Source of the DNA: Capillidium heterosporum
Lineage: Eukaryota; Entomophthoromycota; Entomophthoromycetes; Entomophthorales; Capillidiaceae
Length of the DNA: 64,000 bases
NCBI GenBank assembly: GCA_016630905.1
Contig: WBMQ01000001.1
Span: 868,001 to 932,000, forward strand
Reading direction: 5' to 3'
This document shows, one piece after another, positions 16,765 to 61,015 of the stretch (position 1 is the first letter of the stretch; every line of letters starts with the position of its first letter). The translations under genes and the position numbers were made by a program. The notes beneath the pieces were generated by a model that saw nothing but the letters and a program-made list of their open reading frames with translations, searched no databases and was not told where the DNA came from.

Positions 16765-19700
16765 TTATCGGTGTAAATTATCGTAGCTATTCTGAGTCGA
16801 TAACATACCAGAGATACCCAACGATGAAACAGAGCCAAGGTTGTTGGGGTTGGATGCTAAGGTAGCTGTGTTGTAGAGGTAACCACTATCATCGAATTGG
16901 TGGAGCATCGAATTGAATTGACTATTTGAGGCAGCTATGTTGGATCCAGGTAGAGTGGGTTGGGATTGTATAGCCTCGGGCTGAATGTTTACTAAGCGGG
17001 CTATGTCGGCTGAAGAAAAGTCTTCACGGCAGCGTAGATACGGGTATATTGTTGCATGGTCCAAGGTAGCTAGGGTACCTTCCCTTAAGAGAGACGGTAT
17101 GCCGCTAGGGTTAGCGACGTACAGGAGTTTTGAGATTTCTCCCAGCACTTCAAATTTATCATTTAACTCGTCGATCTTAAGGTCACGGACTAGGGCTTGG
17201 TACTGGGATATATCCCTATAGTAGGTTAGTATATAAATAGTAAACCAATTACTTGAAGAGAAGTAGACCACCAGATGGAGTTACTGTGAACTTTTTATAG
17301 TGTTCCATTAGTAGGCTAAATAATGGTATTAGTATATTGCAATAGAGGAGAATTACCTATGAAGATTTGTCCCCAGCTCGACCAAAAAGGACTCTAGATT
17401 AGCACCTTTGAAGAAGGCTTGGGCCGATACGAAAATACTTTTCAACACGCTACAGCAACGGGAGCACGTTTCGGTAGCCATTGACAGCACCGTCAGATCT
17501 ACGTCATCATCCCTGGTGCGGAATATATGTCTGGGCTGCGAAGCCAGCATACTGGAAAGCCACTGGGTTATACAACCGGTCTCTAGTTGCAGGATTTGAT
17601 TGGTACTCGACTCCAGGTTGGAAAGTAGGCTATTTTTCTTAACGACGGTTTCGCGGTAAGCAGGTGGGGAAGAGGCTACCAGTGGCAGTATAGTAAACTG
17701 GAAGTGCTTCTGGATCAGACCCATTACCTGATTGATGTGGGATGCCAACTTTAGATTCCTTGATGTATTCTTGATGTCGAACGACCTGTTTTCCCTCTGG
17801 CCCAACTCGTATAAAGCTTTGTTTACTATTTTATCTAAGAACCTTTCGCCTAGGTTATCGATCAAAGTAGCAAAGAGTCGGTTGGCATGCGAAGATAAAT
17901 CACTTGCAGGCGAGAGTTCGGCACATCTGCTCATAGCTTCACCATGTATGCATAAGATCCTTATCGTTATATCGAGGATTGTAATTGGCAGTGAACTCAA
18001 GGAGGATGTCATGGATTCATGCAGTGAATCGGGCTCGTCATGGAGTGCCATGAACTGGGCTCTACTTGGTGAGGGAGGGGTTGAAGTGAGGGGTGAACTT
18101 AGAACTGTAGGAGATGAATTACCAGATGTAATGATGTCGGTTGCTTTAGCCAGTCGAGTAAACACGCTTACCTTAGTACTTGCTTTACTTTCTATAGATT
18201 TATGTTTTGAAAAGTACGCTTCGATCGTCGCCGGTAAAATAGTATTTAAAAACGAAACTTCTCTATCCATATATCGAATATGTATGAAAAAATCCTCCAG
18301 ACACCTGTCCACTGTGCTCGATACAGCCGTACATCTCTTCTCGTGCGATATTAACCCAGTTCCAATGAATAAAATATCGTTCCCGTTTTTCTCGTTGGCA
18401 GCCATTTGTCCAACCCGTCGCATCAAAGGGTAGATATGTTGCCTGTCAAATTGTTGAAGGTCAGAAACCAAATTGGCAGTGCAGGCATGAGTGCTAGCCA
18501 AAGTACGTAGGTAAGCTAACGGCGATTGATTATTTGCCTTTTCGAGCAGTCCTTCGAGGTAAGTTTCAATCTACAAAGCATTAAACGTGGAATAAACTAA
18601 TATATTTACGGATTGGCCAAAAATACGCTCTAGGAATTGACGTAGGACGAAAATAGAATTGGGGAACACTTGCGAAATTACACCCCACTCTTTAGCAACA
18701 ACAATTCGAACTTCACCATATAGCTTAACCATCCAAGGATCTGGTGGTGGAGGCGGTTCATTTGGATCATTTAACCCGATTTGACTCCTACAATACAGAA
18801 ACTATTACAAATGTAAATAAAAATTAATTACGCCTCAAAGGAATGCCTAGCGAAATCGATAGAAGACTCTCGCATCTTACGCTGTGACATAAAGAACTCA
18901 TGTTGGTTAATATAGGTCTGGACGCACGAAGCTCCTCCATTAAAGTCTAACAACGTACGAGAGCAGCTCTAGTAATTTTGGTTAAGTAATTAAAAGGCAA
19001 TCGAAAGAATAGCTACAGCCATAGTGGAGATATCCCCATTCGTATACGCTTGATCGAAAGTTTCCAGGAGGTCCTTTTCTAGGTTCTCGTTGTACTTATC
19101 TATACTAGCCCGAGTCTAAACCATTAGTTGTGGGTTTTAGTAAGTAATTTACCTTTTCAATACCAGTTAAATCGAGCTCTTTGGATATATTACTTAATTT
19201 TCGAGCTATTATAGCAGCCTAAAATAAAATGTAAATGAATTAAATTTCCACATCCTTTAAAGCTACTTTATATTGACCATCTGGTCCTTGCACCGAACGC
19301 ATTTCTTCAAGTTGGTTGCATTGACCCTGGCTGGAAAATTCGAGGAAAAACCTACATAGATCACGTGCTTGGAAGGCTCTATTACGTTGTCGATCGACAC
19401 TTTCCAACTGCTGCCCTATCCTTACTGCAGTAACACCAACCTCACCTATCTGACTTTCTAACTCAGAGGTAGCTACTTGTACTTCCTGTAACGTAAATTT
19501 AAAACAAAGATTATGGGAAATTTACCTCAAAGGTCTTGCCTAACAAAGCAAGTGATTGGTTATGTCGTTTTTCAGGCCTCGGCAGCTGCTAACTCCAACT
19601 CGGAAACTCTAGATTCTACTTGGGCTCGAAGTCCTTGAAGTGAATTGAGGGCATATTCGAAACTACGTATAAATGGTTTTGCAACGAACTCTTTACCTAG

Positions 19701-19981
19701 AAATATACAATTTAATATAGGTAGCATAAATGATTGATAAAATAGATTACTATAATCAACAAACTATAAAATTATAAAAATATTACTAGATTCATCTTGA
19801 CGTGCTTCATTTACTATTGTGCTTGAGAGGTCGTCAATAAATCTTTTTGAATCGATATCCGTCTAAATAAATAAACCCTAAGTATATCAAAACTACACTA
19901 GCTACAACTTACAAGGAAGTGCTCGATTGTCAATTTGTCTGCTATATCTTGGTTCATGCCATGGTTCATTAATCCTCTCAT
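16765..19981 (-). CDS. SEC10: exocyst subunit SEC10 with a +1 frame break
   Basis: Eleven exons: 19913-19981, 19787-19862, 19526-19696, 19267-19485, 19153-19218, 19017-19115, 18832-18968, 18610-18787, 17357-18570, 17253-17315 and 16765-17215, about 913 aa. Sec10 is part of the exocyst tether that docks secretory vesicles at the plasma membrane. Family marks are KPFIRSFEYAL, RIGQQLESVDRQRNRA, LLDFNGGASCVQTYINQH, MEHYKKFTVTPSGGL and the C-terminal helical domain. Exon 3 has an in-frame UGA (19574-19572) after ELELAAAEA; the conserved protein resumes at once in the +1 frame (EKRHNQSLALL), so the gene is open only with a one-base skip. The spacing to the next conserved block then fits what I know of fungal Sec10 without gap. 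Confidence 0.9.
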
Positions 19982-20839
19982 ACTTTATAAACATAAACGT
20001 TGTGACGAAATAACTAGGATAGAATTGAAATAGGGAATTTCGATTGAGTTTGGTTTCAAGCTTTAGGTAGGCTTTTCCTTTCAAATTATTACTACAAAAT
20101 ATTCAAGAAAAATGACGGTTTTCAATAGAAATCTGGATACAAATTATATTGTGGTGTTAATATATAGTATATGTGTATATATTTATTAGAACATACGATT
20201 TATACTTTATAATGTACGCATGCTTCTAGCTGCTATATAAAGTAGAGTTGAGTGTATTATTTTCAATTGAGGTATAGCTCCAATAAACTATACAAACTCA
20301 AAGCTTACACTTCTCTAATAGATATCTTTCACTCACTTTGCGTACTTAGGATCTCTTTGAAACACAAAAAGTATCCTACCTGTATTTATTTTATTTGCAT
20401 TTTCACTTTCATAAAAGTACAAGCCTATCATAATTTAATACAGCTATGATTAAGGCGTACATATACTTATAGAAAGTGCTATGATTTTAGCACATACATT
20501 TCTAATCATAGTGGGATTTATAACAGAGAACATCCACAATCTCCTCCATCCAGTAACCACATGCAGCATTTCATCATCCAACGATTTCATCTTTTTTTGA
20601 CGATCGCTGAGTGGCTAGAATGTTGGCTAGAACTTTTATTCAGGTCTAATTTGATGGAAGAAGGCTAAAACTAGAATTGCATAGCCAGTGACAATTTAAT
20701 GGACTTTTTGCTAAACAGCTGTAGTTGAATTTACGTTTTCAGGATAAAAGGTAACTGCCAATTTAAAGCGTCTTCGATGCTAACATCTATTTTCAACAGC
20801 TTCAGTACCTCAACACGCATCACAGAGTAATAGAAAGCA
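19982..20839. promoter_or_regulatory. divergent promoter region
   Basis: AT-rich spacer between divergent SEC10 and YPD1. I see no gene. The open frames here have no ATG start. Confidence 0.5.
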
Positions 20840-21514
20840 ATGGCGGCCTCAGTAACAAAAGTCTCAATTTAAAACTAACAAACTTTAGGACAACGACATC
20901 ATCGACTACGACGTCTTCGGACAGCTTTTAGACATGGACGAAGATGGCGACAATGAATTTTCCAAATCGATAGTCTACAACTACTTTGAGCAAGCTGAAA
21001 CGACGTTCAAGGATATGGACAAGTCATTGTAAGTCTTTTTGATGTATGTGGTATTAAATGATTGGCAAGGGAGGTGAAGGATCTCCCCGAATTGTCTAGG
21101 TTGGGCCACTACTTGAAGGGGAGTTCAGCAGCCCTCGGCCTCAAGAAGGTCAAAGTAAAATGCGAGCACATGCAGCATTTCGGTACTTTGAAGGACAGTT
21201 CTGGCATCAATCCTATAACCGAACAGGAAGCTCTGGAATCTATAGAAGCCTGCCTCAAGATGGTCAAAGAGGAATTTAACACCGCTAAAACCTACCTGAC
21301 CGACTTTTACGAGGAAGGTGGTGAAGAGGAAGAAGATAACGCTACCGGCAACGAGTTCACAAATGAGAATGAGGAAACTGAGGTTAAAGAAGACGAGAAG
21401 GTTGCAGATGACAAAGAAGCTAAAGGCACTGAACAAAAAGGCGCTGAATCCAAAAACGATAGACCCACTTTGGAAAGCAATGCCAAACCGGCTACCCCCG
21501 TAAGCTCTGTCTAA
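20840..21514 (+). CDS. YPD1: histidine phosphotransfer protein YPD1
   Basis: Exons 20840-20851, 20889-21028 and 21070-21514 encode 198 aa. YPD1 carries phosphate from a hybrid histidine kinase to response regulators (Ssk1/Skn7 type) in fungal osmotic and oxidative stress signalling. The HPt helix has LGHYLKGSSAALGL with the phosphorylated His, preceded by FGQLLDMDEDGDNEFSKSIV, a near-exact YPD1 signature. The first exon is only 12 nt. After the HPt domain the protein carries an unusually long acidic, Glu-rich tail of about 65 residues (from EEGGEEEEDNATG) that yeast YPD1 lacks. Introns are 37 and 41 nt. Confidence 0.93.
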
Positions 21515-22713
21515 AATATAGCTTCTTTTAAGTTTTCTTTGAAATGTGCTAGCTACATAGTCGTCTTCTCAACTAATATTGTGGTAATAAACGTTAATTC
21601 TTTATGCGCATTGCCCGCTAAAACTTTAGTTTGTTGCAAATGAAGATATAGGGTAAACCTATATCGACAGGTATGTTTATTGTGATTTTAATATATCCAG
21701 CAAGCTACCATTATTTTTGTAGATCAATGTTGTTGTAGAGCTGTTAATTCGAATTTGATCTTGCTATAAAATAATGTTTTAATTGCTATATCACTTTCAA
21801 CACATATATATTGCACTGCAGGCTTTTTAGCTACTTCAGCTATATATAGCAATATATATTCAACCTATTTACCTTTAGCAACCATAATAGTGTAGTATTT
21901 TATTAATGATCAACTGGCAGTTGGTTTTACTTTGAAGATGGGAAAATAAATGTTTCAGTTTTAAAAGAAGCCAAGTAATTTGATAAACTAAACCAAGGCA
22001 ACTTGTGTTAAAGCTATAGCAGCCTTTAAGTAGATTTTACAAACTTGAAATTTAGATTTTTAGACGTATATATAAATACATGTGATTAATTGCTGGTTTT
22101 TTATACTGCTATATTAGCATATAACTATCTTTTGACAATTTGTTTTTTAGTAAAGCATTAGTCTTTGGCTCTACCTTCCATCAGCAGTATCAATTTCAAT
22201 TTTGCAAATCAATATAAAGTAAAAGGCCTAGATGCTGTAAAATCTTGCTGATAATTTAGTTTCGTTAGGAGTACCTCATAGTTAAAAGTAAATTTGCACC
22301 GTCTTTCAACATAAATGTGAAAGTTACACTTTGAATACGATAAAAGTTTGCAGGCTTTTATTTCACTAAACCTTTGTTACTATTCACCAACTTTAGAAAA
22401 GGCATAGAAACTTAAAATTAACAATGGAAAGTAGCTGATACTTGTACGATAGATATTATGGCTATAGAATTCAATGGTATAAGCTTCAAATAGCCAACTC
22501 TTAATACACAATATTCGTATATCTCTTAAAAAACTAATGATCTACAAATCCAAACCGATAACTGTAAATTGAAGGATTTAACGACAAACCCAAGGAAAAA
22601 ATTAAAAGCTGGTAGCAAATAAATAAAATGTAGATGTTTAATTAGATTCCATTTGGTAAAAAGTATCTGAATAGTTAAATTGCTGGCATAAATAAAATGG
22701 TAGGCGAGCTACA
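21515..22713. other. AT-rich intergenic DNA
   Basis: Convergent spacer of 1.2 kb between YPD1 and the syntaxin gene. Nothing recognisable beyond 3' regions. Confidence 0.5.
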
Positions 22714-23826
22714 TCACGAGCTAAGGGTTAAAACGATAATGAGGGCTACCACGAATAAAACTAAGTAGATGGTACACATCAAGCTGCGCGACTTTTTCTG
22801 GTGGCGGTTGGCAACGTGTAGCTCACTGCTAGCTTGTTGTGTGTTGGCAGCGATACTAGTTACGTTACTTTCAATATTATCTAAATTGTATTAGTAGTAA
22901 TCTTAAAGTAAAAGTACCTAGTAAGCCTTGCTGCTCGGTGACGAAAGTACCTAAATCTCTAAAGACTTCGTTAAGCTCGGTTATACCTTGCTCGATCTCT
23001 CGGATCTCTTGCTCCCGCTCCTCAATAAGGTTACTGTTAAACTCAACTTCGTTGTCCAAGCCTTGGACTTGAGCACTAAGTTTTAAAGTTAGGATAAAGC
23101 CATGTTTCAATTAATACCGTTGATTAGATTCCATCAAAAGTGGTTGATCCTCTTCAGCTGCATCCTCACTTTAACTCAATTAGTCTAAATTAAACTAAAA
23201 ATGTACTTTTCGTTGTGGCTTTTAGATAGGTAATCAACGACCTCACGGGACTTTTCCGCTGAAAGACGTTGGACGCTGTAGAACTGCTCGACAACCTTCT
23301 GGAAGTCTTTGGTTAGCTTTTGGATGCTCCAACTTGCGTTGGCGCTAGAAATATGTTACTAAAAGAAAAATAAAAGTAGACTACCTGTTGCTCATGACTA
23401 ACGTTGTCAATTTGAGCAGCCAAATTTTTCAAGTCCAACGTTGTATCCTTTATAACTTCTCGTGTACCCTCGGTGACGTCGTGCCTTTTTACATTAGTAC
23501 TTTTTGAAAAGAAAATGATTACATGTGCTGTCGTAATTTGGTCGTATCGCGTGCCGTACCCAACTGGGAGACGATGCGCTGCAAGGTGGAGATGGAATTG
23601 TTAATTTTGAAGATCTTTTGCGAGACTTTTTTCTGTAACTTGGCGCTATCTAATAAGTCGGAATTTAGGGAAGATAACATATATCCTAAAGTCAGTAAAA
23701 TTCGTTATGAAATAAAGGTATTTAATATCTAATAAATTTAGATGCCTCCTTACCTTGAGCTGTAGAATCATTGTTTGCTGAATTGAGCCCATTGCCATAC
23801 CCCGCTTCAAGATCGTTGGAAGACAT
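22714..23826 (-). CDS. PEP12: Qa-SNARE, syntaxin 7/Pep12 type, with a +1 frame break
   Basis: Seven exons (23754-23826, 23523-23685, 23385-23484, 23207-23344, 23118-23168, 22918-23075, 22714-22880) encode about 282 aa. The protein drives endosome/vacuole membrane fusion. An N-terminal Habc domain is followed by the SNARE motif (NLIEEREQEIREIEQGITEL, zero-layer Gln in IEQGI) and a C-terminal anchor (TIYLVLFVVALIIVLTL). Exon 4 begins in one frame with RQRKLE and then continues in the +1 frame as KLTKDFQKVVEQFYSVQ. Both halves are highly conserved and adjacent in the family, so one extra base (near 23318-23329) separates them. Vam3 is an alternative name for the same clade. Confidence 0.9.
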
Positions 23827-26800
23827 TTGTGTTGGCTATTTAAAATGGTCAAGTGGTGTAAGGTTAACTTGTTGGTGCTGATGTTGAAGAGGGTAAACTG
23901 AGTCTATAGGATTAATAATGGCAATTTCACAATGAACAAACCTTATAGGGCTAATTATTCGTAAGTTGATGATTTCATTCGAGTCAGTGTAGGTTTGCGC
24001 TGGATTCAAATCTGTGGGCTGGTAGTTAAACCGTCTTTTCAATAAGTTGGGGATCAAATGGGATAGAATTTACTGGGATCTACCGAATATATTTATTCAA
24101 GAAAGAGACAAACTGTTTTGGATTGATGGTAATTTTCCAGATGATTCATTTTTTGCAAAAATTCATATCGATCGCCTTGTCAACTCAAGTTTCAGTCAAA
24201 GGCTGTGTAGACCAAGCTGTAAGGACATTAGGTGGATTTGATTCTTTCCCATTTCAGTCGCTATAGTTATCAACTTTTCAATTTATCCACATATACACTG
24301 AAATATAATAAAGGTTTTTGTAATCTAGAGCAACTTCACTTTTATCACTGGTCTTCAAACACTAACCACATACATAAATATTAAGAATGTGGCAGTATTT
24401 ATGAAAAAGCCATTTTTAGTGATAGTATTAGTTTCTTGCTTTTTCTCCATTTTTGCACTATAAGTCTTTCAATACCGATCGATATCCTTCAATTCATATG
24501 ATACTTTCCTTATTAATACAAAAGTAGTATTATTAAGATAATATACACCTATGAGTTGTTACTTTGGATAATTTGGTAGCCAAGTTCAATTCTATAATTA
24601 TACTATTAATTCTCGCTTACTACCTTGGTAGAATTGACCAACATTCTTTATTACTGGGAACTAACTTCACTGAGGTCAATCTTATTAACTGGATGGCAAA
24701 TATATTTGAGTTTAATCACTGGTTTTTATCCTATATCTATGCTATACTCTTAACCAAACATCCAGTACTACTGATACTGACTTTGGTCTATCTCAGATGA
24801 TATAGCTGATGGGTCCGGTAATCGACAATATCTTGGCTTTTTACTGCATAATAAAAAACCAGATACCTGTATGATATCAAATACCACTTATGGTCACCAT
24901 CATTTTAATTTATTTTCAAATTATATAAACAGTCTCTCTTTAGAATAAATGATAAAATGGTATAATTATCTACCTTGTCAATTTAAGGATGATAGCGTAT
25001 GTTAAGCTTGGCAGCAGTAAAGTAGCAGTAGGTTTAACCACTGCTAAGCACAATGGTGCATACCTTGAATTCAAATATCTCAAATCCCAATTTTTGATAG
25101 CACTTTTATACTACTTGAGCTATATCTAGCAGCTTATTTGATCATAACTCTAAACTAACGTTGGTTTAGATACAATCAATGAACTTGACTTGTAAAGCAT
25201 ATCTAGGTTTTGGATTATCTATATATGACTTACATTTAGCTCTGTATAGAGTTAGAATTCGATATGGAAGTTAGCAAATACATCATCATCAAATTCATAT
25301 ACTTGGATAAATTTTGATTTCGATTTGTAGCATCCCATACTAGTCAATGGATAGGTTCCTAAAGACTATACTTACTGTGATTGGCAACAATATGCAGTTT
25401 TAAGTCCTATACGATACTATTTAAAGGTACTACAAACACAACTACTTTAGTTCACAAATATAAAACGGCGGTCTTCACAATCTTCATAAATCTCAAACAC
25501 AAGTATACTTCAGCGGATAAAGGTCGTGGAGCGGTACAGCGACGGTATTTGCTACTCGGGAATTTCAAGGGTCTGAGTCGTTATTAATATGAATCGGTAG
25601 GAAGTTAGCAAATTTGAGGTTTCCTGCCTTTAGAAACATATTTATATAGACATGAGAAGTCTTATCTTTGATAAAAACTATCAGGGGCAACTAAAGGAGT
25701 TGAACTGAGCTGGTGAAGGCTTGATAAATTTGTTGGAACATCCAGGTTTGTAAAAGTATATTCTGGTACTGGCTGTTAAATTGACATCTACCTATCTAGA
25801 ACTCGGTTAGATTAGGATGTAATAGCCTTTACTACGTCTGTATTTCAACAGACTATAAAGGACATCTACACCTACTGGTTTACTGCAGTCAGAAGATTCT
25901 TATAATGATATACTGCTTCCGATCTGATTTAGAATCCACTTTTCTTACAAAGCAGTTGGATAAAAGTAGATTTTGAACTGATTCGGAGACGGTATATGGG
26001 TTGCCTTTATGCCATACGTAGTAACTGTGGCTATGATGTCCTTTAGTAACCGATCTATAGTTGACGTAAGGGTTTCACCTCCATAGATATAGGAAAAGTA
26101 TAACTGAGTTGAGTTTTAGAGATAAAGGGAGATAAGGTTGTTGCAAGTCTTAAAATAAAGTCAGTTTCCAAGGCTAATGTATTTTTAGATGTACTTGTAT
26201 CGTTCCCTTTGTAAAGATGACTAAATAAGCTTGAAAGGCGGATATTGTGGGCCCACTCGTATTTGAATGGACTTTAACTACCCTGGTTCGATAAAACGGT
26301 GGATATCTGGCTAATACGTGGAAATACAAACTTCTAGCCTGGCCTTTATTTTGCGTGTTGCCATCCCTTGTCAAAATTTTAATGGTAAGCTTGATAGAGA
26401 ATATTATGTCATTCTTCAACTCCATTATAGAAAGAAAGAAATTAAGAGTCACCGTTATGGTGTATCCCTTAGAGATAGGTAAAAGCAATAGGGTAGTTCT
26501 AATCAGCTGTGTAAAGGTGCAGGTTGTAACCCCAAGCCTAAAAAACCCGGGATCATATAAATTGCGAATTCTGGTCACATTGAATCAGAGGTGAATGTAA
26601 AGTACATTTATTGGGTAATATTGATTAGGCTTGCTGATAGTGTAATAAAGTGTCGAGGTAACTGCTGAAATTAGCTAGACTAAAGTTCACATGCACAGCA
26701 AGGGATAATTCCTCAGTTGAGGTGAGCACAAAGTAAACTTGAAGAGAAACCTATTGTAAAGGGTTGAAAGTCAAACCTGCCGCATCCAAGAATTAATTGT

Positions 26801-27063
26801 CGGCCACCAACCCCTAAACTCAGCACAAACGTATGGTCAGCCCAATTATATTGGGCAAACCGGTTGTAAAAGTTACTCAAAATAGCTTGGAAGTGATATA
26901 ATTATCAAACGCAAGACATCTATAAATCAGGGGTATAAAGCGCTACAAAGTTCAAGTGCTAATTTTATTTCTTTGTCTCCAATTTGATTCCCAATTCAAT
27001 CTCAAGTAAGAGTAAACGCCTTCAACTTTCCATACTAACTACGTTAACAGATACAACTGGACT
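23827..27063. other. 3.2 kb gene-poor region
   Basis: No supported gene. Scattered open frames (24564-24800 with hydrophobic content, 26174-26578 minus) begin at TTG or GTG and lack exon partners or recognisable domains. The 3' end holds the perilipin-like promoter. A non-coding transcript cannot be excluded. Confidence 0.4.
26934..26940 (+). promoter_or_regulatory. TATA box of the perilipin-like gene
   Basis: TATAAAG at 26934-26940, 124 bp upstream of the ATG at 27064; a second TATAAAT lies at about 26921. Downstream the sequence becomes pyrimidine-rich (CTTTGTCTCC), as in 5' UTRs of strongly expressed genes. Confidence 0.45.
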
Positions 27064-28252
27064 ATGATGGCTACCGAAAACCCAACCTACATGGAAGAAA
27101 CTAACAACCAGAAGGTCACCCCTCAAGTCGAAGAGAGTGAACCCGTCCCAGCTCAAGAAACTGCCCAGACTGAAGACAAATCGGGTCCCCAGTTCTCCGA
27201 AAAGGAGTTCCCCGCCCTCCCCAGCCCCAGCAGCGAGAGCACCAATTTTACCGAGCACGAGGGCCACTTCCTGGACCATTTGAACTCCATCCCCATGGTC
27301 GCTGAAGGTGTTTCCTATTTCCAGAGCTTCGTCAATGATGATACCAAGTCCTACAGCCGCTACACCAAATATGCCCTCACCACAGGCTGGAACTGCTCTC
27401 TCCAAAGTCACCGAAATTGCTGAGACCCACTTCCCCAACCAGGTCTCGGCCGTCGATCAAATGGCCGTCAAATCGTTGGACTACTTGGAGGAACAGCTCC
27501 CCGTCCTCAAGCAGAGCTCCAGCCAAGTCATTGAGAGCTCACGTCAGGTCATCTCCGACATCGTCGCCACCCCAACCAACGCCCTCAACTCTACCCTCAT
27601 CAACGTCGCCAACAACGCTGAAGCCGTCTTGGACCGTATTCTACCTCCCTCCAGTGAAGAAAAGTCAGAGGAAATTGAAGATGGTGGTATTGCCAGACTT
27701 CGTCATGTCACCGTCGACGCTCAGCGCCGCGTATTTAAGGTCGTCAAAGGTCAGATCGATAACTTGACCGCCGAGAAGGATTCGTTATTAAACCTGCGCG
27801 AGACCAACGCCTACTTGCAGCGAGTCTCCAACGAATTGACTAGCCTCAACGACAAGCTGCACAACGCTGTTGCTTCCACCAAGGACAACGTAGTTAACCT
27901 CAAGGACTCCAGTCTCCAGTACCTGCAGCAAACCCAAGTCCAGCTGACCAACCGCATCAAATCGGAAGTCGACAACGTAGCCAAGCTCATCAAGTTGGAC
28001 GCTTCCTCGCTACCTGAAAGCTTACAGGCCCAGATTGAGCCCACGCTCAAATTCTTCAACGAGCGGTACGCCTTGCTGTCAGCCGAGTTCCAGAAGAAGG
28101 AGCTGACCACTTTACAGCTGGCCAAGAACGCCATTGTATTGGCAACTGAGTCGGTCCCCTACCTTGAGGATACCCGCAACTACATCACGTCCTTCATCTC
28201 CAAGAAGGAGGCTGAAGTTGAAGCTAAGCAGGCTGAGACCCAGGCTAACTAA
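27064..28252 (+). CDS. perilipin-like lipid droplet protein with a +1 frame break
   Basis: About 395 aa if one base is skipped. Perilipins coat lipid droplets. PAT-domain marks are FLDHLNSIPMVAEGVSYFQS in the first frame and VDQMAVKSLDYLEEQLPVLK in the second, followed by amphipathic helices. The first frame ends at TGA 27421-27423; the second is open from before that point to 28252. The join falls near 27376-27388, reading ALTT then AGTALSKV. An unusual 55-nt intron from GTC at 27331 to CACAG at 27385 would also restore frame, but its donor is unlike the others here and it would remove residues of good codon quality. Codon bias to C-ending codons is very strong, so expression is probably high. 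Confidence 0.72.
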
Positions 28253-35975: not shown

Positions 35976-37024
35976 TTAGTCGTTGTCGAGACGGGCGTAC
36001 CCTTCGCGCGTATGAATGTTGGATAGCAGGGTCTCCAATTTACCTATTACCAGTGGCTTAACTCCCTTGGAGCTCGATTTACTGTTGGGTAAGGAGATGG
36101 GTGGATTGTAAGTACTACGTGACCCTGGAGCTGGGGATCGAAGTGGACCCGAGTTGTTGTTACTTTGTGCCTTATCGAAGGTAGTAGTAGCTTGGACCAT
36201 AAGGACAGTTCTTTCGGAACTTGTATAGCAAGTCAACGTTAGGTAGCTCTTCAAAGTTGTGGGTAAATATCCCTAGCTCACTGTCTAAATGCCGTAATGC
36301 CTTCAACTTTAACTCCATCATTGAGTTAGCGTTTCTATCTGAGAAAGTTTAAAAACATAAAGCTATAAAGTTTACCTAAATCAAGCATTAACTCCATATA
36401 CACTCTATCGCTTTCAAAGCCGTTGTAGCAGTCCGTTAGTACGTCGAATAGAACCGTCTTAAAGTACAAAAATTTGGCTTTGAAGTCGAGTGCTGTTTCA
36501 GGTAAGGTTGCGAACCATTCGGGATCAAAGGTAACTGAGATGCGCGTAGTTGGTATAATAAACCTACTAAAAACCTTGTTGGATTGGTTCATAAACCATT
36601 CAGCTTCACGGTCTTGAGCTGACATAACGCGATCGATCTCCATGTAGCAGAGCTAAAGTTATAAGTTAAGCAATATAGACAATAAGCTTACTAGATTCTG
36701 CAGCATATTGTTACGGTAACAGTATCGCATAAAATAGCACAACGGTACCCAAGATTGGCTTATAGAGCAGAACCCCAAATTGGAAGTTTTGGAAGGAACT
36801 CCATCTACCATTACCCTGTCACCAAAGAAGTGTTGTAGTTTTCGAGCTCGTGAATTGGCAGGTGAAGGTAAAGGTGGTGAAAAGAAAGGTTTGGGGACGA
36901 CTGTAGTGTTGCTGACGTTGAGTTTCAAAGGTGTCGGCACCCGTTTGGTCTTGGTACTTTTGGTGCTGGTCGGTTTCATAACGATTATACGAGAGGGTAG
37001 TGTACTGTGGTAGGCAACATCCAT
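35976..37024 (-). CDS. RGS-domain protein, possible +1 frame break
   Basis: Exons 36692-37024, 36376-36652 and 35976-36338. RGS proteins accelerate GTP hydrolysis by heterotrimeric G-alpha subunits. The domain runs over exons 1-2: SWVPLCYFMRYCYRNNMLQN, LLCYMEIDRV, then ISVTFDPEWF, VLFDVLTDCYNGFESDRVYM. The N-terminus is basic and proline-rich. In exon 3 the first frame ends at TAA 36174-36172 just after NCPYGP; the +1 frame continues for about 68 more residues of Ser/Pro-rich sequence to 35976 (323 aa in all). A 67-nt intron starting GTTGAC could also restore frame, so this break is less certain. The shorter product would keep the whole RGS domain. Confidence 0.65.
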
Positions 37025-39917: not shown

Positions 39918-41161
39918 CTAGAAGGGGACCGTTTGGATAATAAATAGGTAGAGTGTGACCAAGGCAGTCATCACGGGGATAGCTAGGATGTAGGAGTATA
40001 GTAGGAGCATCGACATCTCATCTTCGAACTTGTGGACCGACTGGCATACCTGGAGAAGGTTGATGGCGGTGGGAGAGGAGACTAGGATCATTATGACCAG
40101 GACAAATACCGGGTCGTCACCAAGGTAGAACCAGGGTTGGGCTAACAGTAATAGAGAGACGACAATCAAAGGTGAAAAGATGAATCGATTGACTAGGACT
40201 AGACCAATCATCTTAAACGATACGGGGCGAGATTCGTTGACGAGAGTAGAGATATTGCAGCCTAGACCAATCAAGATAATTGGGATGGATGCACCGGAAC
40301 ATACTTTGATAGCCTGAGCCAAGGCAGCTAGGGGAGCTGATGGACCGTACAGTAAGCTTTTCAGAGGTGGGACGGCAACTACAAATATCGAAGCGAAAAT
40401 GGCAATCAGTGGTGGATTGAGTATAGCTAAAAAGTTGTTGTAGAAACTCTCTAATTGCGATTTCAAAGTTTTAGGGTGGCTGGACTTGCGTGCTCCCCAA
40501 AAGTGGGGCAGATTCATCATCCGAGCTACTACAAAGTCCTGATTCGACTCGGGTTTCGATCTGCTTGTTCTGGTCCAGTTCAACGTTGTCAGGTCCCTTC
40601 AATAGGTTAACACCGAAAGACCATCGGACAATGTTGGAGCAGGCAGCAAACATGACGATGTAAGTTATACCACGACCTTCGATTTCCTCGATGGTGTCGT
40701 CCTGATCCCACAGCAGGTGATGGGCGACCGAGCTTAGGGCGATCGACTGGATCAAGGACATGGGCAGCGAGTTGGAGTTGGAAAATATAGAGGCAAAGGT
40801 GGCAAATCTCCTCTTAGTGTCACTTAGACCTAAAGCTTTAGAGCCTAAATAGGCGACTAGCATAGAAACACCCATAGCTACAAAGTAAATAACGGGGATG
40901 GGCCACATGCTGATAAGGGTATTAAAGTTTGTGTTGGAGACCATCTTGGTGAAGAGCAGACACGGCGTAAAGAAGTTGATGTTCAGTTGCGACATACCTT
41001 TGTGTAAGTCGTTGCTGATGATCTTGTAACGCATCAGCACGAAACCAAAGATGCAAGTACAGGCCACTTGGATAATTGCCTAAAATAATTTAGTAAAAGT
41101 TCGATAGTTGGGGTTGCGTTACCTGTACTGAGGTGGAGATCAGTGGGATTAAGTCTACCAT
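39918..41161 (-). CDS. auxin-efflux-carrier-family transporter, probable +1 frame break
   Basis: Exons 41123-41161 and 39918-41079 encode about 399 aa of the AEC/PIN-like membrane transport family, found in fungal ER or plasma membrane. About ten hydrophobic segments are arranged five plus five around an acidic cytosolic loop. N-terminal half: LNINFFTPCLLFTKM and FSNSNSLPMSLIQS; C-terminal half: LNPPLIAIFASIFVVAVPPL, SIPIILIGLGCNIS and SPTAINLLQVCQ. The first frame ends at TAA 40473-40471 in the loop after DDESAPLLGS; the second half is open in the +1 frame from there. One extra base in the CCACCC run explains this. A 64-nt intron with a GTCG donor would also fit. Substrate unknown. Confidence 0.8.
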
Positions 41162-48428: not shown

Positions 48429-49068
48429 TTATTTTGCGTAGTTTTCATGGCCACACCCCTTACATTTACGGAGCTCAGTGTCGCTGGCGTACTTTTCGAT
48501 AATAGGTTTGAGCTGAGTACCTAAGTCTACACAATGGAAGCTCTCCTGGTATACAACTTCATGACAGTTGTCGCAGTACCATCTCAAAGTATCTACAAAA
48601 GCATCAGTAAATGGGATAAGAGTAAATAGGTACCAATTTCACTTTGACTACGTTGACGTTCAATTACTAAACCAATAGTGTTGGCGAACCTTACCGGGTT
48701 GTGGGGAGTGTTGGCTAGTAAAAGTAAAGTAAATTTAGATATGAAAACTTGAAGATACTTACCAGGTAGCAAAAACATCTCACCTTCCTTGATGTGAATG
48801 TCTTTGAACTCCTTACCATCAACCACTTTGAGTAGCATATCTCCTTGATACTGGTAAAACCATTCCTAGACAAAGTCAGTTAAAAAGTAAAATTTCCAAA
48901 TACCTCAGTCTGGTTGATATGGTAATCGGTTCTGGCGTTGGGACCGCCAACTACCATGATGATAAAGTCACCACGCTGCAAGCAGTAGTTGTTGACGGGA
49001 GGTTGTAGTTTAGATTTGTGCTCTTCGACCCAGCTTTTGAAGTTGATAGGTGGTAACAAGCTCGTCAT
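48429..49068 (-). CDS. BNA1: 3-hydroxyanthranilate 3,4-dioxygenase
   Basis: Exons 48904-49068, 48763-48865, 48634-48714 and 48429-48592 encode 170 aa. The enzyme opens 3-hydroxyanthranilate in the kynurenine route from tryptophan to NAD. The cupin iron ligands are visible: His and Glu in [15 protein letters not shown], and the second His in NTPHNPVRF. The C-terminal rubredoxin-like site has CDNC and CKGC pairs (second metal), as in the bacterial and fungal form. All introns are 38-48 nt and in phase. Confidence 0.96.
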
Positions 49069-49977
49069 ATTTAGTTGAGTTTTTCAAGTAGTTTTGAGTC
49101 GAGAAATTGAGCTCGTTAAATAGTGCTGGAATCCTGGAAAAGTATTTGTAATCAGAGTGACGAATAGCAACTTAAATTTACAGCTCGAAGTTGTGAATAA
49201 CCCGATGTCATGAGACGTTTATGATATTTACTCCATTCAGATTTATTGAGCATATTCTCTTATGCATTTCCAAGTCAAATGTGCATAATATATTTGAACG
49301 ATGGAGGTACGAAATATACAAATTTGGATAACAATGAGCAATGTAAATGAGATTTATAGCTATTGATACCCAATGAATTTTGATTATTTTAAGAACCATG
49401 CTACTTAATTTGTTACTGTAAAATTTCCATTGTAGCTTCAATTTATAGTTTGTGAGCTAAAGGATCGCACTTATAAAGATGTAAAGCGAGTATAGTTGTA
49501 GTCCTATGATCTATCTAAACTCACCTGCTACCGCCGTCGTCTCCTATGATCGCTAAATATCCTTTTAAAGCAGGCGTACAACTTACTTTTAAAAGCCTGC
49601 ATGCCTTTACAATATAGTTTGACTTAAACTGGATCAGAAATTTGTTCTATTTTGGACCTTCAAAACTTCTATAACTCATTCTAATTTCATATATAAAGAC
49701 TAAATTAGCATACAACTAGGTCCTATTTGATAATGCCTAATATCTCAAATAACTTCTATATAAGTATGCAGAATACAGAGTTTATATTTTAAAATGATAT
49801 ATCGACAGTATCCTAATACTTCAAGCCACCCATAAAGCAGGCATTGTAAAATATAACCATCTATTTAATCAATCATCAAACTACATTATATGTAGAAAAT
49901 ATTCATAAAAATACTAGCTCAGCATATAGTTTTAATTGGCCTAAGTGAAAGTTGGGTAAAAGACACCCATATTCAAC
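49069..49977. other. AT-rich intergenic DNA
   Basis: Promoter of BNA1 and 3' region of SF3B1. An open frame at 49208-49441 (minus) has no ATG at its start and no domain. Confidence 0.5.
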
Positions 49978-52900: not shown

Positions 52901-53613
52901 GAATTAGCTTCAGATCTTGGGGTTTCATCCCAGCGCGATGATTGCTTGGTAGAATTTGAGGACTCTACAGGAGTTTCATCCCACCTGTTACGCTTACGGA
53001 TGGATGAGCTGTCGGAAGCACGGGGCGTCTCATCCCATTTCTTTGAGCTTGAGGAGCTGCTCGATTGTCTTGAATCCCGAGTCATTACAGGGGTTTTGGC
53101 TTCATAACGTCCACTCTGCTCGTACTCTTCCTTCAATCTATTTACCTTTTCGGCCTCTCTTTCTTTGATGGTTTTGCGGACTTTCTCTTCTTCATGCTCC
53201 AACTCTCGAGTCTTCATTACGTCGCGGTAAGCTCTACCACCTGAAGAGTCTTTTGAAAAGGCATCGGCTCTCTCGGGGGAAATGTCACGCAAGAAGCGTC
53301 TGGAATGGTAATCATCTTCGCGTTGGGCAATAATCTTACTTGCTTTTTTATCGACATGCGCAAAAGGATCTGCATCATGGTCGATTAGGTCGTCTTCTTC
53401 ACCAGGTAGTGGTAGGCTGGAAACATACTCCGATTTATCATTTGTGCTGTAGTAATCTCTATCGTAGGTGACACCGGATAATGAAACGCGACTTGCCTGC
53501 TCTTCTTCAAGGCGCTTAGCTTCTCTCTCCTTTTGTTTTTCTCTGAGTTCTTTTTCAAATTCTAAATTAATGTTAGTGAGTAGGTTAGCTTTAAAATAAC
53601 AATTACCTTCCAT
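49978..53613 (-). CDS. SF3B1: splicing factor 3B subunit 1
   Basis: Exons 53607-53613 (7 nt: ATG GAA G) and 49978-53561 encode 1196 aa. SF3B1 is the HEAT-repeat scaffold of the U2 snRNP that clamps the branch-site helix. The N-terminal region has four W-D-E-T-P motifs (KKWDETP, NRWDETP, SRWDETP, SRWDETP), the cyclin/CDK and cofactor docking repeats. The HEAT superhelix is very conserved: [20 protein letters not shown] includes the lysine matching human K700, and [17 protein letters not shown] follows. The C-terminus ends [12 protein letters not shown]. The 3.6 kb coding sequence has no frame break. It is the largest and best-conserved gene here. Confidence 0.98.
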
Positions 53614-54866
53614 TACTGAATTTGCTGTAAAAGAAATAGGTTGAAGATTTGATAGTGTTCTGAAAACAAAAGTAAACTTGACAAAATTTAGTTTAGCTTA
53701 GCACAGAACTTCAAAATGTGCAAAATATTTGTACTCTATTTCAAATTAACTGCATTTGAAAAAAACCATCTTAGAGTTTATAAGGCATTTAATTTGGAAT
53801 ATGGTTTAATAGCCAAAACAGAGCATAAAGCTTCCCACCAAGGATACTAGCATCAAATACATATAAAGTCAAAAGGAAATCCTCCTATGATATTAGCCAA
53901 TGCCTAGTAGTGATTAGTTGGACTGGTAGCTACAGTGGATGATTTTGCAGTACTACAGGCAGCTCATACTCTAAATCAACCATAAGCTATGAAGGGGACA
54001 TTACTAAGCACAACAAATATATGCCCTTGGTCGCAGCATAGTGTTACTTATAAAGCTATAGCCTATTTTATAGCTAATAGTAAAGTTAATTTTCAGTTGG
54101 CTTTATTTTAATTTGTTATGCCGATGTATAGCCTCATAATAGCATCTTTCTTCCATCTGATGCTGTTAGGTATTTTACTTTAAAAATATATTTGGTATAA
54201 GTACTCGATCTTTCCAAATGAGAGTAGTAGCTTAGATAATAAAAAGTAAAACCATATTATTAAAGATATAGGACAGCATTAGCACAGTAAAATATATCAA
54301 AATCATTCTGAAAACTGTTTATACTACCAAACATAATGCCTAGAGAAAAGGCTGCATTTGTACATATACAGGCTTGAAATTTAGATAGACGTTAAACCAG
54401 AAAGGATAATAAGGATAAAATAGAATAGTTGCTTGTAAATTAATCTTTACTATTTTAACAGTAGCTTCAAACTTTATAGAATTGTGTGCTCAATAACTAC
54501 ACTTTTCTATAGTGTTGCATATAGCCTTATTTTGGTAACGATGCTAACCATTAACATGGAAGTATACTGCTAAACTTAGCATAAATATACTTCAAGTAGT
54601 AAATACTGAATTAAATGTATATACTTATTAAGTCAAGGAAAATTAAAAAATGCACTAGAATTTCGATAGCTTTGGAATTATATTCCTGGCTTAGTAAAAA
54701 CAAATAGACAGTAGAAATGGATGATAAACAATGTAAAAAGAATCGGAATGGTGACAGCATAGTAACTAAAGATAAACTATTTGATGAATCTTGAATAGAA
54801 AAAACACAGCAACAAGTCATTACTTTAACGGAACGTTGTCTTGAAAAGTTTATAGATGGGAAGCAT
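53614..54866. other. AT-rich intergenic DNA
   Basis: 1.25 kb with the SF3B1 promoter and the 3' region of the COX7C-type gene. No gene seen; the frame at 54611-54820 has no exon partner or domain. Confidence 0.5.
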
Positions 54867-55173
54867 TTACTGCTTGTTAAGTTGCCATACGCAAGCTAAA
54901 TGTAGCATAGCTAGTAAGTACATAATAGTTTACAAAAAATACCTAATACGGGGAGAGAGCTAGCGAAGACGCAGGCAGCGGTGAACTTGAAAGCGAAGCT
55001 GACCTTGTTCTTGGTGCTGAAGGGTAGGTGCTAATTACCAAAAACATAATTTAGAGTCAAGATTGGAAAATGAAGCTTACAGCACCATTGGTGTTCTCGA
55101 AATGGTAGAGATCGGAACGGCGGAGTTGGCGCATGGCAGCAGTGCTGCGGGTGAGGGCGGATCTGGCAAACAT
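54867..55173 (-). CDS. COX8: cytochrome c oxidase subunit, COX7C/yeast Cox8 family
   Basis: Exons 55081-55173, 54943-55030 and 54867-54895 encode only 69 aa, too short and split for ORF callers. The subunit is a single-span component of complex IV in the inner mitochondrial membrane. A presequence rich in Arg/Ser (MFARSALTRSTAAMRQLRR) precedes HFENTNGA, then the family block HLPFSTKNKVSFAFKFTAAC and a membrane helix ending VLACVWQLNKQ. The LPF-x-x-K-N signature and the WQL end match COX7C/Cox8. Both introns (50 and 47 nt) join in frame. Confidence 0.88.
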
Positions 55174-55753
55174 TTTAAATACTCTAGGCTGGCTTAGAAA
55201 CTTGAGATGTGATCTCTGATAACAAATTTTATTTTTGACGAAAGGATGATTTTTGCTTGACAAATGAGATCCTTCCATAACTTAGGGCTCGTGAGGTAAT
55301 TCAATAAAACTTGGAAAATATATTCCAAATTAACTGCGTCAGTTTATATTTGACATTTAATATAGTCAGTTATTAATTTGGAATTTCCACTCGCTATTTG
55401 CAGCACTACCCTGTTCGGATATATCTGGGAATTTTCTATAATTAAACTTGTAAAACTTACACAAGATCTATAGACAGCTTTTATGACATTCATCAGAAGA
55501 ATTTGCACTGATTTTTTTAGATAGCAAAGCGTTCCTAACTCTATTAGATTTTTAAATAAATCGCTTTATGTAAGATGCCAGCTTAATTTACCTTTTCAGA
55601 TAGCACCATTATATATTTAAGAAGTTTCGATTCCTTTGTACATGACACTGTTTAAAGGCAATTGTAAATTTACATTTTAATTTTATGATTCTTTTATATT
55701 TTCACAAGATTATATATAATTCAAAGTATAGCTTTAACTAGCTCATTTAGGAG
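55174..55753. promoter_or_regulatory. divergent promoter region
   Basis: AT-rich spacer between the divergent COX8 and RdRP genes. No gene seen. Confidence 0.5.
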
Positions 55754-58700
55754 ATGCCTTCAGCTAAAGAATTCCCTACCAAAAATTTTACGTTACAGGG
55801 TCTACCATTAGATGTATCTGAGCATAACTTAGAAGATTTATTCAGGAAATATGGTCCCATTGAGAGTATCGATATAAAATCCAATCTCCTAGCACAATCA
55901 ACTACAGCTTCACTAAGATTTAGGGAAATACCACCACCTGCAATATATTCCGATTTAATATATTTTAAAAGTCGAAAGGTATATGTAATCAGCGAATGCC
56001 CAAATGTAGAACAGATGGTTGAACTTGAGAGTACCAATGAGTCTTCTGAAAAGAAATCTGCAAACCCCCAAAGTAATGACAAGGCCTTTGAATTAAGCAG
56101 AATAGAACTTGGAACTTATCATCAGAATACTTTTTTTTCAGAATGGACGAGTGTACCTTTATCCAACAAGGATGATGTCAAATTCTGGTTGAAAATAAAT
56201 CAGAGCAAAGCTATATTGATAATTGAGTTTGTGGTCAACAAGTTTTTTATTCGAGCCAATATCTCGTTCCAGCATATCAAAGGCACCATTTTAGTTGAGG
56301 AGGTGGAGCATGATATCGTATTGACCATTCGAAACTTAATCCCACCAAAGCTGTGGTTTATCTTGAAGGAGGAATATAATGAAAACAAAGCCAGTAAGAA
56401 ATCGAATCGCTTTAAGAGACTAGTTGACCACCACCGCAACCTTTTTGCCCATAATTCGCAGACGACTAGCCCACTCACTCCACCTTACAAAAATAGGAAG
56501 AAGTTTAATCTGGGCGTCAACTTGGTTTGGCGTATCCGATTACATGCCAATAGCTACGGAGACAATTTGAGCAAGCAACGCGAACTGAGCTGTCTTTCCA
56601 AGTACAACATACTAAAGGATCCGATAGAGTTCGAGCATATTGAGGTCCGTAAGATAGACACCAAAGGTCCCGTTTATATTCCAAAGGACCTACCGTTTGC
56701 AGTCCAGTATTCGATAGAGAGTCTCTTCAGCCGCAATTTAACTTTTTACCATGCCTGGTCCAAAGATTTCGCAGATCTTTTACATAATATGCCCCAGAAC
56801 AAAGTTGTCCGAGCGATGGAGCAGGTATGGGCTGAAGATGAGGCAATACTAGACCTCTACAGATATTTTCAAAGCGAAATTGAGAACCCAGTCTACCTGC
56901 AGCACAATGTAAAGACGCCCACCTACAACGCACTTGTTCGTAAGGTAATCATCACCCCAACCAGGATGATCGTTGTCCCTCCCACCTTCGAGATTACTAA
57001 TCGCATTTTGCGTAAATTCCGTCACGTCGAGGATCAATTTCTACGTGTTGCTTTTACCGACGAGAACTCCATATCGATAAACTCAGCCTCTCATGATGAG
57101 GCCCAGCATCTCAGCAATCGCATCTTCCTTGCTTTGTACTACGGCATCAGCTTAGCCGGGCGCAACTATAAGTTCCTTGCTTTCTCAGCCAACCAACTGC
57201 GTGATCATAGTTGCTGGTTCTTTTCAGAGGGAAACGGTGTAAAGATTGATGACATCCTTAAATTCATGGGCAACTTTGAGAATACCAACTATGTTTCCAA
57301 GTACACGACACTCATGGGCCAGAGCTTCTCTAGCTCATATGACAGTATTAAGCTAGCCTCCACCGACATCAAGATCATTCCTGATATCGGACATAACAAG
57401 CACACTTTTTCTGACGGGGTGGGTAAGATTTCAGCCTATTTACTGAGAAAAATCGCCAAGAAACTAAGCATGGACATTGTTCCCAGCGTCATCCAGTTCC
57501 AGATGGCTGGCTTCAAAGGAATCCTATCTCGATGTGATGAGCTACCTGACAATGAGGTTCACTTTCGTAAAAGCCAGTACAAATTCGACTCCAATCACTC
57601 CACTTTGGAAATTGTCCGGAAAGCAGCCTACTCCTCCTCCTACCTCAATCACAAATTAATCAACATTCTGTCCACCCTGGGTGTTCCTGACTCCACCTTC
57701 ATCCAGATGCAGGATGAGATAGTTGCTGAATTGCTGAATTTTGATGCCAGCGTCAACCAGGCTCGCCGCTGTTTGGTCAAATACTTTGATGATTTCGGCA
57801 TCTCTCGGACGCTGCTACGTCTTATTAATGCTGGATTTTTGACTACCACCGATTGTTACGTCCGGAATTGTCTGAAACTTATCGCCATTAACATCCAGAA
57901 CAATCTCAAGCAGAAGGCCCGTATCCACGTCAACGAGGGAGCTCTGCTAATTGGAATTCTCGACGAGACCAACACATTGGAAGCTAACCAGATCTTTGTA
58001 TGCTGTACCGATCTCGAATCTTCCACCCAAAGGAAACGAATAATAGTGGGCCCTTGCATTGTGAGCCGAAACCAGGCTCATCATCCGGGCGACATCCAAT
58101 TAGTTGAGGCGATCGATGTAAAGGGCCTACACAATCTTCATGATGTCGTCGTCTTTTCAGCCAAGGGAGAACGCACTATACCCAGCATGCTAGGTGGCGA
58201 CGATTTGGATGGGGATAAGTTCACTGTAATCTGGGACAAGAACCTGATCCCCAAAAAAACATATGAGCCGATGCAGTCATTATCCGCTAAGGAAAAATAT
58301 GTGGACAAGGTGAAGACCACCGACATCATTCAGTTCTTTGTCGAGCACATAATGAATGATAATATGGATCAAATCTCCAATGCCCATCTCGTATTGTCTG
58401 ATACCAGTCCCAAAGGCGTCTTCGATCCTGAGTGCATTAAATTAGCTCAGCTATACTCTAGGGCGATCGATTTCTCCAGATCGGAAATTCTGGCAGAGTT
58501 TCCCGATGAGTATAGGCCCAGAGCGTACCCCGACTTCATGGAGAAGAACGACAAGCCAACATACGTCAGCAATAAAGTGCTTGGAAAGCTGTACCGTAAG
58601 GTAGATATGCTCTACTTCGCGCCGGATGATGAGTACAAGCTCGATCAATCGATGCTTATCGAAGGGGTACCAGAGCTACGTAGATGATGCAATCCAGTGC

Positions 58701-59351
58701 AAGCTAGAGTATGACGCGTCGGTACGCTCCATCATGAATCAATTTGGGATCCAATCCGAGTTTGAAGCTGTATGCGGATGTATGCTGCGTCACCACGATA
58801 TGATAGAGAAGACAAGCTTCCGAGTTCGAGAGATGATGTCGGAAACGATGCGCAGCATCAAGAAGGACTTTAGCGATAAGTTTCACGCCCCCTTCAAGTT
58901 AAACAAAAAGGACCTTATCATAAACGAGGACAACAAGGATACCATCTTAAAAAAGGCATCAGCTTGGTACTACGTCTCCTATTCACCTGACATTCGCCAA
59001 CAGACTGAGTCCAACTTTACTACATTTGCATGGGTCATCGAAGATCGGCTAATTGATGTTTTAAAATCCAAGGGATATAAACCTAAAATCTTTGCAAAAC
59101 CTACCTCCCAGCTTGATAAATTGGATGGAGAGAAACCAGTAAAGTCAGAGCTCGATAGCTTTACCTATCCAACTGTGAATACCAGGCTGGATAAAATTAA
59201 TTTTGCCAGTCCTGATAACATTCAAGATATACTCCTTATAAGTTCGGATGATGAGCTTTTTGAGGATGATGACGACAACTTTGAGCTTAACCAGCGACTT
59301 GAAGCTATGAATTTAGAAGATATATTAACCCAGTCCAACCATAAGGTTTAA
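55754..59351 (+). CDS. RNA-dependent RNA polymerase (RNA silencing) with a +1 frame break
   Basis: One exon, about 1198 aa with one base skipped. Eukaryotic RdRPs (QDE-1/RDR type) convert single-stranded RNA to dsRNA for Dicer. An RRM-like domain occupies residues 6-80 (FTLQGLPLDVSEHNLEDLF). The catalytic DDLDGDKFTVIWD motif is near residue 815, supported by GDNLS..., FSDGVGKIS and QFQMAGFKG. The first frame stops at TGA 58685-58687; the C-terminal domain (YVDDAIQCKLEYD, SIMNQFGIQSEFEAV) runs on in the +1 frame to 59351. The break is at GAAGGGGTACC (58661-58671): dropping one G gives the conserved EGYQSYVDDA. The active site lies before the break, so a truncated protein would keep it but lose the C-terminus. 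Confidence 0.93.
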
Positions 59352-59469
59352 AACTATTCCCTACCTGCCTATCGCCCATGCTGTAACTACTGCTGACTTC
59401 TATTTACCAGCATAGAATATCTTCTAAAATAAATCTAAATTGCTTTTAATTTTATTTAACTTTTAAAAT

Positions 59470-61015
59470 CTATGCTGTAAACAAGTCCCAGTACAGCGCT
59501 CCATACAGGTAACAAGTCAAAATCGCCGAGTAGATTGAAGTTAAAAGCAAAGGTAGGAAAGTCTCAGAGATACCTGGTAAGAATCGCAGTACAAATATGG
59601 GTAAAGCCATCGAGTAGTATCCCACCTCTAACCAAGTCAACTTCAACTTAGTAAACCGGTAAGCTAGGCAACTCCATATAACCAAATAAACTAATCCAGC
59701 TAAACTTTCGGTAAAAGGTATGAGCAACGGTAGGTTCCCATACCCACCCACTATTTGCAACTGGATCCAGATTTGAGTCAACTTTTTGGAAGTAGGAACT
59801 AAGTAGATCAGTGGGAATATAACCAACATGATAGCTTTCTCATGGACGTGGTATCCGAAATGGAAGGCAGTAAACCCGTTCAATGTCAGAACCTTGAAAA
59901 AGTTTGTTGCAGTTGGCTTGCATGCCAAATAGAGTAAGCTAGGTAGCATCATACCTAACGTGATTAAAAAGGTATGATGGGGTTGAATGTCAGGTAAGTG
60001 GAAGAACTGAATATCACCTACCAAGCCTCGAGTTACCGAACTGGTATCAATATCTAACTTAGGTAGCAACTTCAACAACAGTCGGTCAATGACAGCATAC
60101 AATGCCCAAAAATTGGGGGCCCAGTAGGCGTGCAACAATCCTCGTTGGAAGGGAAATAATCTTGATTTAATTTGCAGCAGCTGATCGATACTCAAAAATG
60201 GGGCAAAGGCTACGCCAACAGGAATAAGCACCGATATACCTAAAGTTAGTAAACGCTGGCATCGATTTTACAAGGGGAGGGGTCAGAACATATCCAAAAA
60301 GTAAGTAGACAAAGTAGGCAGGAGCTAAGTAGACGTAAATGTGCTTGAAACATAGTAAAGTTGCAAACAGAAAACCGCCCCATACGAAGTTGGAGGTGAA
60401 GATAGCGTTGAGGGACAGGAGTAGGATACCGTACATGAAACCATTGTATTGGAAGTGGATATGGTCTACCATAAATAAACTGGGGTTGAACAAAGTCAAC
60501 AGGCTTAATACTTGGATACCAAATTCGAAACTCTTGACTACACTATTGAACCTACTTCCAGTTAAAATTGAAATAGAAATAAAAATTACTGGATAAGGCT
60601 GAACACCAACATCAATTCAGAAACTATAACGGAAAGGCGTTGGAATAGTACGCAGGCAAAGCTAGAGTAATTGAGTTGGTTGAGATTGGTTATATTTAAG
60701 TCGAATAGTTTGGAAACTTGGCTTCAGGATGAATTCAAAGTATGCGAAAAATGGTGGGTAATCTAACGTCCATTCGCTAGTTTTCTAAATTTTTATAAAA
60801 AACAAATGTTAACTTGATGGAAAAGATAAAAAGCTACTTCAAAGTACCATTGGTTCAAAGGTAAGCTCGAAGTTATAGCTAACCAGTTTCTATGGACTTC
60901 AAAGTCGGTTGACTTGCTTTGTAAAATTTAAAAAATAATAGATACTATAAACTTACTAGGCAAAGAACAGTAGGAGCTTGATACCGGTTACCAATAGGAA
61001 TATTCGTAGGTACAT
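59470..61015 (-). CDS. ALG8: dolichyl-P-Glc alpha-1,3-glucosyltransferase ALG8 with two +1 frame breaks
   Basis: Exons 60957-61015, 60838-60916, 60590-60784 and 59470-60551 encode 470 aa if two bases are skipped. ALG8 adds the second glucose to the lipid-linked oligosaccharide in the ER lumen. Family blocks: [83 protein letters not shown] (which separates ALG8 from ALG6) and FGYHVHEKA. Break 1 is in exon 3 at about 60719-60727 (FEFIL then SQVSKLFDL). Break 2 is in exon 4 at about 60251-60262 (VKSMP then RLLTLGISV). Exon phases agree only if both are +1. Many membrane helices. Confidence 0.92.

Follow-up and report, generated by a model that had tools for sequence, protein, structure and literature searches.

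In Euplotes, approximately 11.4% of the genes are given in PMC5011710 as undergoing frameshifting, and for a Trypanosoma brucei assembly PMC8445201 attributes some indel errors to allelic variants lying close together. According to PMC11105155, entomophthoralean fungi are generally regarded as haploid, and ploidy is still unsettled in Entomophthora muscae. Here, the 64,000-nt window at positions 868001-932000 of contig C1 (WBMQ01000001.1) of the entomophthoralean fungus Capillidium heterosporum was analyzed. The assembly (GCA_016630905.1) consists of 29.5 Mb in 44 contigs, which are cited by number. An earlier reading of the window (the original prediction) had reported eight single-base frame breaks in seven genes. 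The analysis indicated that these breaks are almost certainly an assembly artefact of some kind; we consider it likely that each extra base arose by a consensus error, the two alleles of a heterozygous synonymous transition having been recorded next to each other.

The reading frame was tested with anchors of our own choice on each side of every break, and the genes were read by eye. All eight named sites needed one base to be skipped, as had been claimed. The genes and breaks are listed below, with the skipped base set between hyphens.

16765..19763, minus strand: SEC10 exons; break at 19574-19578, read as GCC-T-GAA, extra base 19574.
22714..23826, minus strand: syntaxin gene; break at 23317-23326, read as CAT-C-CAA (23323); the downstream piece matches Syntaxin_2.
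27064..28252, plus strand: perilipin-like gene; break at about 27378-27388, read as ACA-G-GCT (27385); the Perilipin profile is in the downstream frame.
35976..37024, minus strand: gene labelled RGS in the original prediction; break near 36177, read as CTT-C-GAT.
39918..41161, minus strand: AEC carrier (Mem_trans); break between 40542 and 40471, read as CCC-T-AAA (40473).
55754..59351, plus strand: cellular RNA-dependent RNA polymerase (RdRP), with an RdRP profile match; break at 58662-58667, read as GAA-G-GGG (58664).
59470..61015, minus strand: ALG8; break a at 60719-60728, read as CTG-A-AGC (60724).
59470..61015, minus strand: ALG8; break b at 60257-60270, read as TCG-A-TGC (60262).

At SEC10, syntaxin, RdRP, ALG8a and ALG8b, the anchors were 4, 7, 4, 7, and 16 nt apart, respectively, and the smallest intron implied by the exon gaps in the family tables was 31 nt; thus, there is no room for an intron at these five sites, as the original prediction had held. 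The ALG8 pieces tiled the Alg6_Alg8 Pfam profile in succession (39-59, 59-104, 117-214, and 207-479), the step from 104 to 117 being a canonical intron by eye, and no second copy of ALG8 was found in the genome. The upstream piece of SEC10 matched the Sec10_N profile (1-35) at 22.4 bits, under the cut-off of 27.4; the downstream piece (25 aa) had no Pfam match, and the C-terminal piece matched yeast SEC10 (5yfp_E). The AEC carrier covered positions 5-157 and then 199-341 of the Mem_trans profile. The RdRP pieces abutted in two of four homologues, and in the remaining two the similarity faded ahead of the junction. The tail of the RGS gene was poorly conserved, and its upstream piece had no Pfam match. 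SF3B1, PPR, and MRP51, which had been described as clean, showed zero breaks in a frameshift-aware gene model.

Extra-base breaks were also found in conserved genes outside the window, as follows.

C1: Lys2, MTHFR, and a Bud6-like gene.
C44: glutamate decarboxylase.
C38: CCT.
C7: HSP60.
C1 (two), C23 (one), and C41 (one): canonical HSP70 genes.
C6: HSP110-like gene.
C12: aldehyde dehydrogenase.
C23: Polo-like kinase.
C43: myosin, at which the break could not be pinned.

The HSP70, HSP110-like, aldehyde dehydrogenase, myosin, and kinase breaks were located from family-match coordinates, after which the sites were read. In the family tables, matches separated by an intron left at least 31 nt, and the breaks in conserved genes left exactly 1 nt in six of seven cases and 7 nt in the gene on C6. 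All gaps in the tRNA-synthetase and actin tables were explained as introns, with no break; no break was seen by eye in the AMP-binding table, and the Pkinase table held one. Two kinase matches of near-equal score, C23:2888494-2889057 (minus strand) and C23:2894322-2894885 (plus strand), point in opposite directions with a spacing of about 5 kb; they may be an inverted duplication.

Among the conserved genes inspected, there were 22 breaks with an extra base (8 in the window and 14 outside), more than expected by chance, against one clear missing-base break, in HSP60; the statement that a -1 break never occurs has to be dropped. One further apparent missing base lies in a variable loop of a dynein heavy chain gene on C5 (position 9638 of the C5 block, L023). 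In divergent HSP70-like copies on C2, C3, C32, and C44, many of which carry internal stops, eight breaks were +1, seven were -1 and one was unclassed; the grouping into divergent copies and conserved genes is our own. Thus the method detects both signs, and the one-sidedness is confined to the conserved genes. The divergent copies, possibly a decaying or fast-evolving expansion, are located at C44:335495-700034, C2:407355-442989, C3:103557-104392, and C32:697713-698856.

A purpose-built gene finder, which modelled introns, insertions, and deletions with an equal penalty for either sign, was trained on the window and 200 kb (C1:858001-1022000 and C5:100001-200000). It predicted 63 genes, with 100,134 nt of coding sequence in total, and called nine extra-base and three missing-base events; it was not exhaustive, the SEC10, syntaxin, and ALG8b breaks being missed. 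The three deletions fell in the last codons of one prediction, in the variable dynein loop, and in a bHLH gene that also carried an insertion. That bHLH gene, in the C1 block at window coordinates 77524-78774 (L015), can be read either with one base missing and another in excess or with three extra bases. Four calls were discarded as edge or gene-end effects: deletions at position 153909 of the C1 block, position 9 of L001, and position 3654 of L009, and an insertion at position 15 of L035.

At all 20 pinned breaks, the extra base could be read as the synonymous transition partner of the third base of the preceding codon. Examples are GAC-T-GGT in HSP60, and CCC-T-GCC and CAA-G-GGT in HSP70. 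A synonymous single-nucleotide polymorphism (SNP) is usually a third-base transition. The null expectation was obtained from simulated insertions into 52 clean predicted coding sequences, matching the free and fixed residues and the span of each event. The rule fitted 13 of 13 well-pinned events, compared with 5.3 expected under random insertion (P 4e-6), 5.0 under homopolymer extension (P 2e-6), and 4.6 under extension of C or G runs (P 3e-7). The break in the Polo-like kinase gene, found later (GTA-G-AAG), also fitted; with it, the fit was 14/14, against 5.8 under random insertion and 5.5 under homopolymer extension (P 2e-6 and 8e-7). No excess was found in the control with wobble transversions (4 fits, 8.4 expected) or for transition pairs at codon base 1 (4, with 4.1 expected) and base 2 (6, with 5.2 expected). 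Under the tightest readings, the breaks in HSP60 and aldehyde dehydrogenase (both GAC-T-G) and in the kinase gene were not run extensions.

According to the proposed explanation, the source genome would be heterozygous (diploid or heterokaryotic) and collapsed in the assembly, and reads of both alleles would have been merged into one consensus. At third-base sites with C/T or A/G, the consensus step would have retained both bases; writing both would cost one deletion per read, and writing one would cost a substitution in half of the reads. Where neither allele was retained, the rarer missing base would result, as possibly in HSP60. In that case the cell would have unbroken genes and would need no frameshifting. 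The extra-base breaks hit genes that are hardly dispensable, such as HSP60, the canonical HSP70s, CCT, SEC10, and ALG8. In a simulation of a maximum-likelihood consensus at 800 heterozygous sites with assumed noisy-read error rates, which is a model and not a test of the actual assembly program, both alleles were written at 57 sites and a single allele at 740, and no allele at 3. The simulation thus reproduced a +1 bias with an occasional missing base. No description of SNPs written twice was noticed in the literature at the level of search listings.

Two pairs of near-identical contigs were found, which are probably alleles kept apart in the assembly, judging from their alignment. C2 and C14 (83,873 bases) shared two family matches of near-equal score, which were colinear over 37 kb with spacings of 37,117 and 37,041 bases (C2:1494232-1531612 with C14:44378-81685). 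Their alignment showed 11 SNPs, ten of them transitions, and no gap in 1801 bases. C4 and C17 (53,093 bases) differed by one transition in 801 bases (C4:1428411 with C17:47256; L043-L048 for both pairs), so that 11 of the 12 SNPs over the two gap-free pairs were transitions. In a stretch of C14 lying about 2 kb before its end, the pair differed by three substitutions, with six bases extra and three missing in C14; two of the extra bases there fit the rule, GCA-G-TCG and CCA-G-GAA, where C2 has GCA and CCG.

Several points weigh against the writing of both alleles. The rule was noticed on 13 of the same 14 events, leaving the kinase break alone as a fresh test, and several events permit more than one reading. 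The anchors, the patterns, the classes, and the division into well-pinned and other events were matters of our judgement, and the P values are qualified accordingly. Homopolymer extension was also possible for 13 of 14 events under loose patterns, or 18 of 20; by chance, 9.9 of 14 would be compatible with runs under random insertion. The extra-base calls of the gene finder were unevenly spread: nine fell in the 59.5 kb of predicted coding sequence on C1 and none in the 40.6 kb of the C5 block (chance about 0.009). One 6-kb part of C5:100001-200000 (L023-L032) was single copy; therefore, in that part, separated haplotypes do not account for the lack of extra-base calls. Homozygosity or better coverage of the C5 block may account for it. 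Recent segmental duplication is another possible origin of the contig pairs. The open frame aligned between C2 and C14 had seven SNPs of which only two were synonymous, below the expectation of the rule, which implies that this gene is atypical among conserved genes. Among the extra bases of the C14 tail that lie in coding sequence, two of five obeyed the rule and three did not. A second, intact copy was found for none of the broken genes, and ALG8 has no second copy at all.

Programmed or tolerated +1 ribosomal frameshifting of the Euplotes kind, one of the two options in the original prediction, would suit the single sign shared by the eight window breaks and almost every other one. Every pinned skip could be placed between two codons, and the commonest reading (4/21) was CCC then T. 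CCC followed by T is a context of +1 slippage by proline tRNA. When signals were sought among the 21 pinned breaks, no slippery motif or A-site codon was common to them; a zero-frame stop, as needed for a stop-driven shift, was present in only four (SEC10, AEC, aldehyde dehydrogenase, and HSP70 on C6), and AAA-TAR in none. The Lys2 break was not seen in relatives: the two pieces abutted or overlapped by a few residues in all eight relatives compared (predicted proteins of 8 of the 120 listed relatives, predictions that could mask a break). With no common site, few stops, and no Lys2 break in these relatives, frameshifting appears highly improbable. The missing base in HSP60 speaks against +1 frameshifting, the density of breaks is uneven between contigs, and the skipped base obeys an SNP-like rule that no slippage model predicts. 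The same pattern could be taken as real four-base words, each a codon plus the transition partner of its third base (NNCT, NNTC, NNAG, and NNGA), decoded as one amino acid, that is, widespread non-triplet decoding, to which we give hardly any credence.

Uncorrected insertion errors of noisy long reads, mostly homopolymer over-calls unrelated to alleles, are a possible but rather unlikely source of the breaks. They suit the 18 of 20 breaks readable as the extension of a run of at least two bases, many of them C or G, as well as the six extra and three missing bases of the C14 tail against C2 and the uneven distribution over contigs. However, the homopolymer model predicts 5.0 wobble-transition fits in 13 where 13 were observed, the HSP60 and aldehyde dehydrogenase breaks are not in runs, and compatibility with runs is high by chance too. 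The suggestion that three sites could be atypical introns stood in part: by eye, candidate introns fit AEC (GTAGCT...ATTAG, a donor that also suits two other window introns) and perilipin (GTCAAT...ACAG), and at RGS the tail is not conserved. Yet the skipped stretch in AEC and perilipin is ordinary protein in the upstream frame, and introns are impossible at the five tight sites and in HSP60, HSP70, and Lys2. Short or atypical introns at AEC, perilipin, and RGS are very unlikely. Pseudogenes or lineage-specific losses, for which the existence of divergent HSP70-like copies with internal stops would speak, can be set aside altogether. Those copies divide 8 to 7 in sign and the conserved genes do not, which bears out the view that a one-signed bias is unexpected of decaying pseudogenes, and the broken set includes HSP60, the canonical HSP70s, CCT, SEC10, and an ALG8 gene without a second copy. 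The remaining option of the original prediction, an insertion-biased assembly, was right in kind: several contigs and all kinds of genes are affected, HSP60 has a missing base, the C14 tail has indels, and the extra bases follow an SNP-like rule.

The window lies in a genome with dense genes and short GT...TAG introns (median 43 nt, 156 predicted introns). Among the 120 matches listed for SF3B1, the top match had 83% identity, and the best named relatives were E. muscae (82%), Neoconidiobolus thromboides (79%), Massospora cicadina (78%), and Basidiobolus ranarum (74%). The relatives found with Lys2 were concordant (E. muscae 68% and Massospora 65%), and a search with the RdRP found only nine relatives, the closest being that of Tieghemiomyces (40%). 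Judged by its SF3B1 and Lys2 relatives, the fungus would belong to the Entomophthoromycotina and is probably absent from the protein database. The Rfam scan of the window gave no match, and ARAGORN found no tRNA in it. Two adjacent open reading frames on the minus strand of the window (4111-4368 and 5290-5544) are similar in sequence in the manner of a duplication; we take them to resemble a duplicated rhodanese-type domain.

These results remove a false lead towards widespread frameshifting. If both alleles were indeed written, extra bases that repeat a wobble transition would flag merged alleles in unphased long-read genomes, which would be a cheap test, and the broken genes would mark heterozygous sites; the breaks suggest that this entomophthoralean fungus is heterozygous. 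Four-base decoding, if true, would mean widespread non-triplet decoding in a fungus.

Compared with the described systems, the breaks resemble Euplotes frameshifting in affecting many nuclear genes with the single sign +1. In Euplotes, however, the shift occurs at AAA-TAR stops, as given in PMC4759687, while here none of the 21 pinned breaks had that signal, few had a stop, and one break was -1. The gene-breaking single-base indels described for long-read assemblies are similar and are cured by polishing; the wobble-transition rule, however, would not follow from homopolymer over-calls alone. In T. brucei Lister 427, a PacBio-based assembly likewise held a consensus of merged alleles, and apparent frameshifts were removed by phasing. 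That report (PMC8445201) refers to variable-length repeats and misaligned neighbouring variants, whereas in C. heterosporum the extra base fits the second allele itself.

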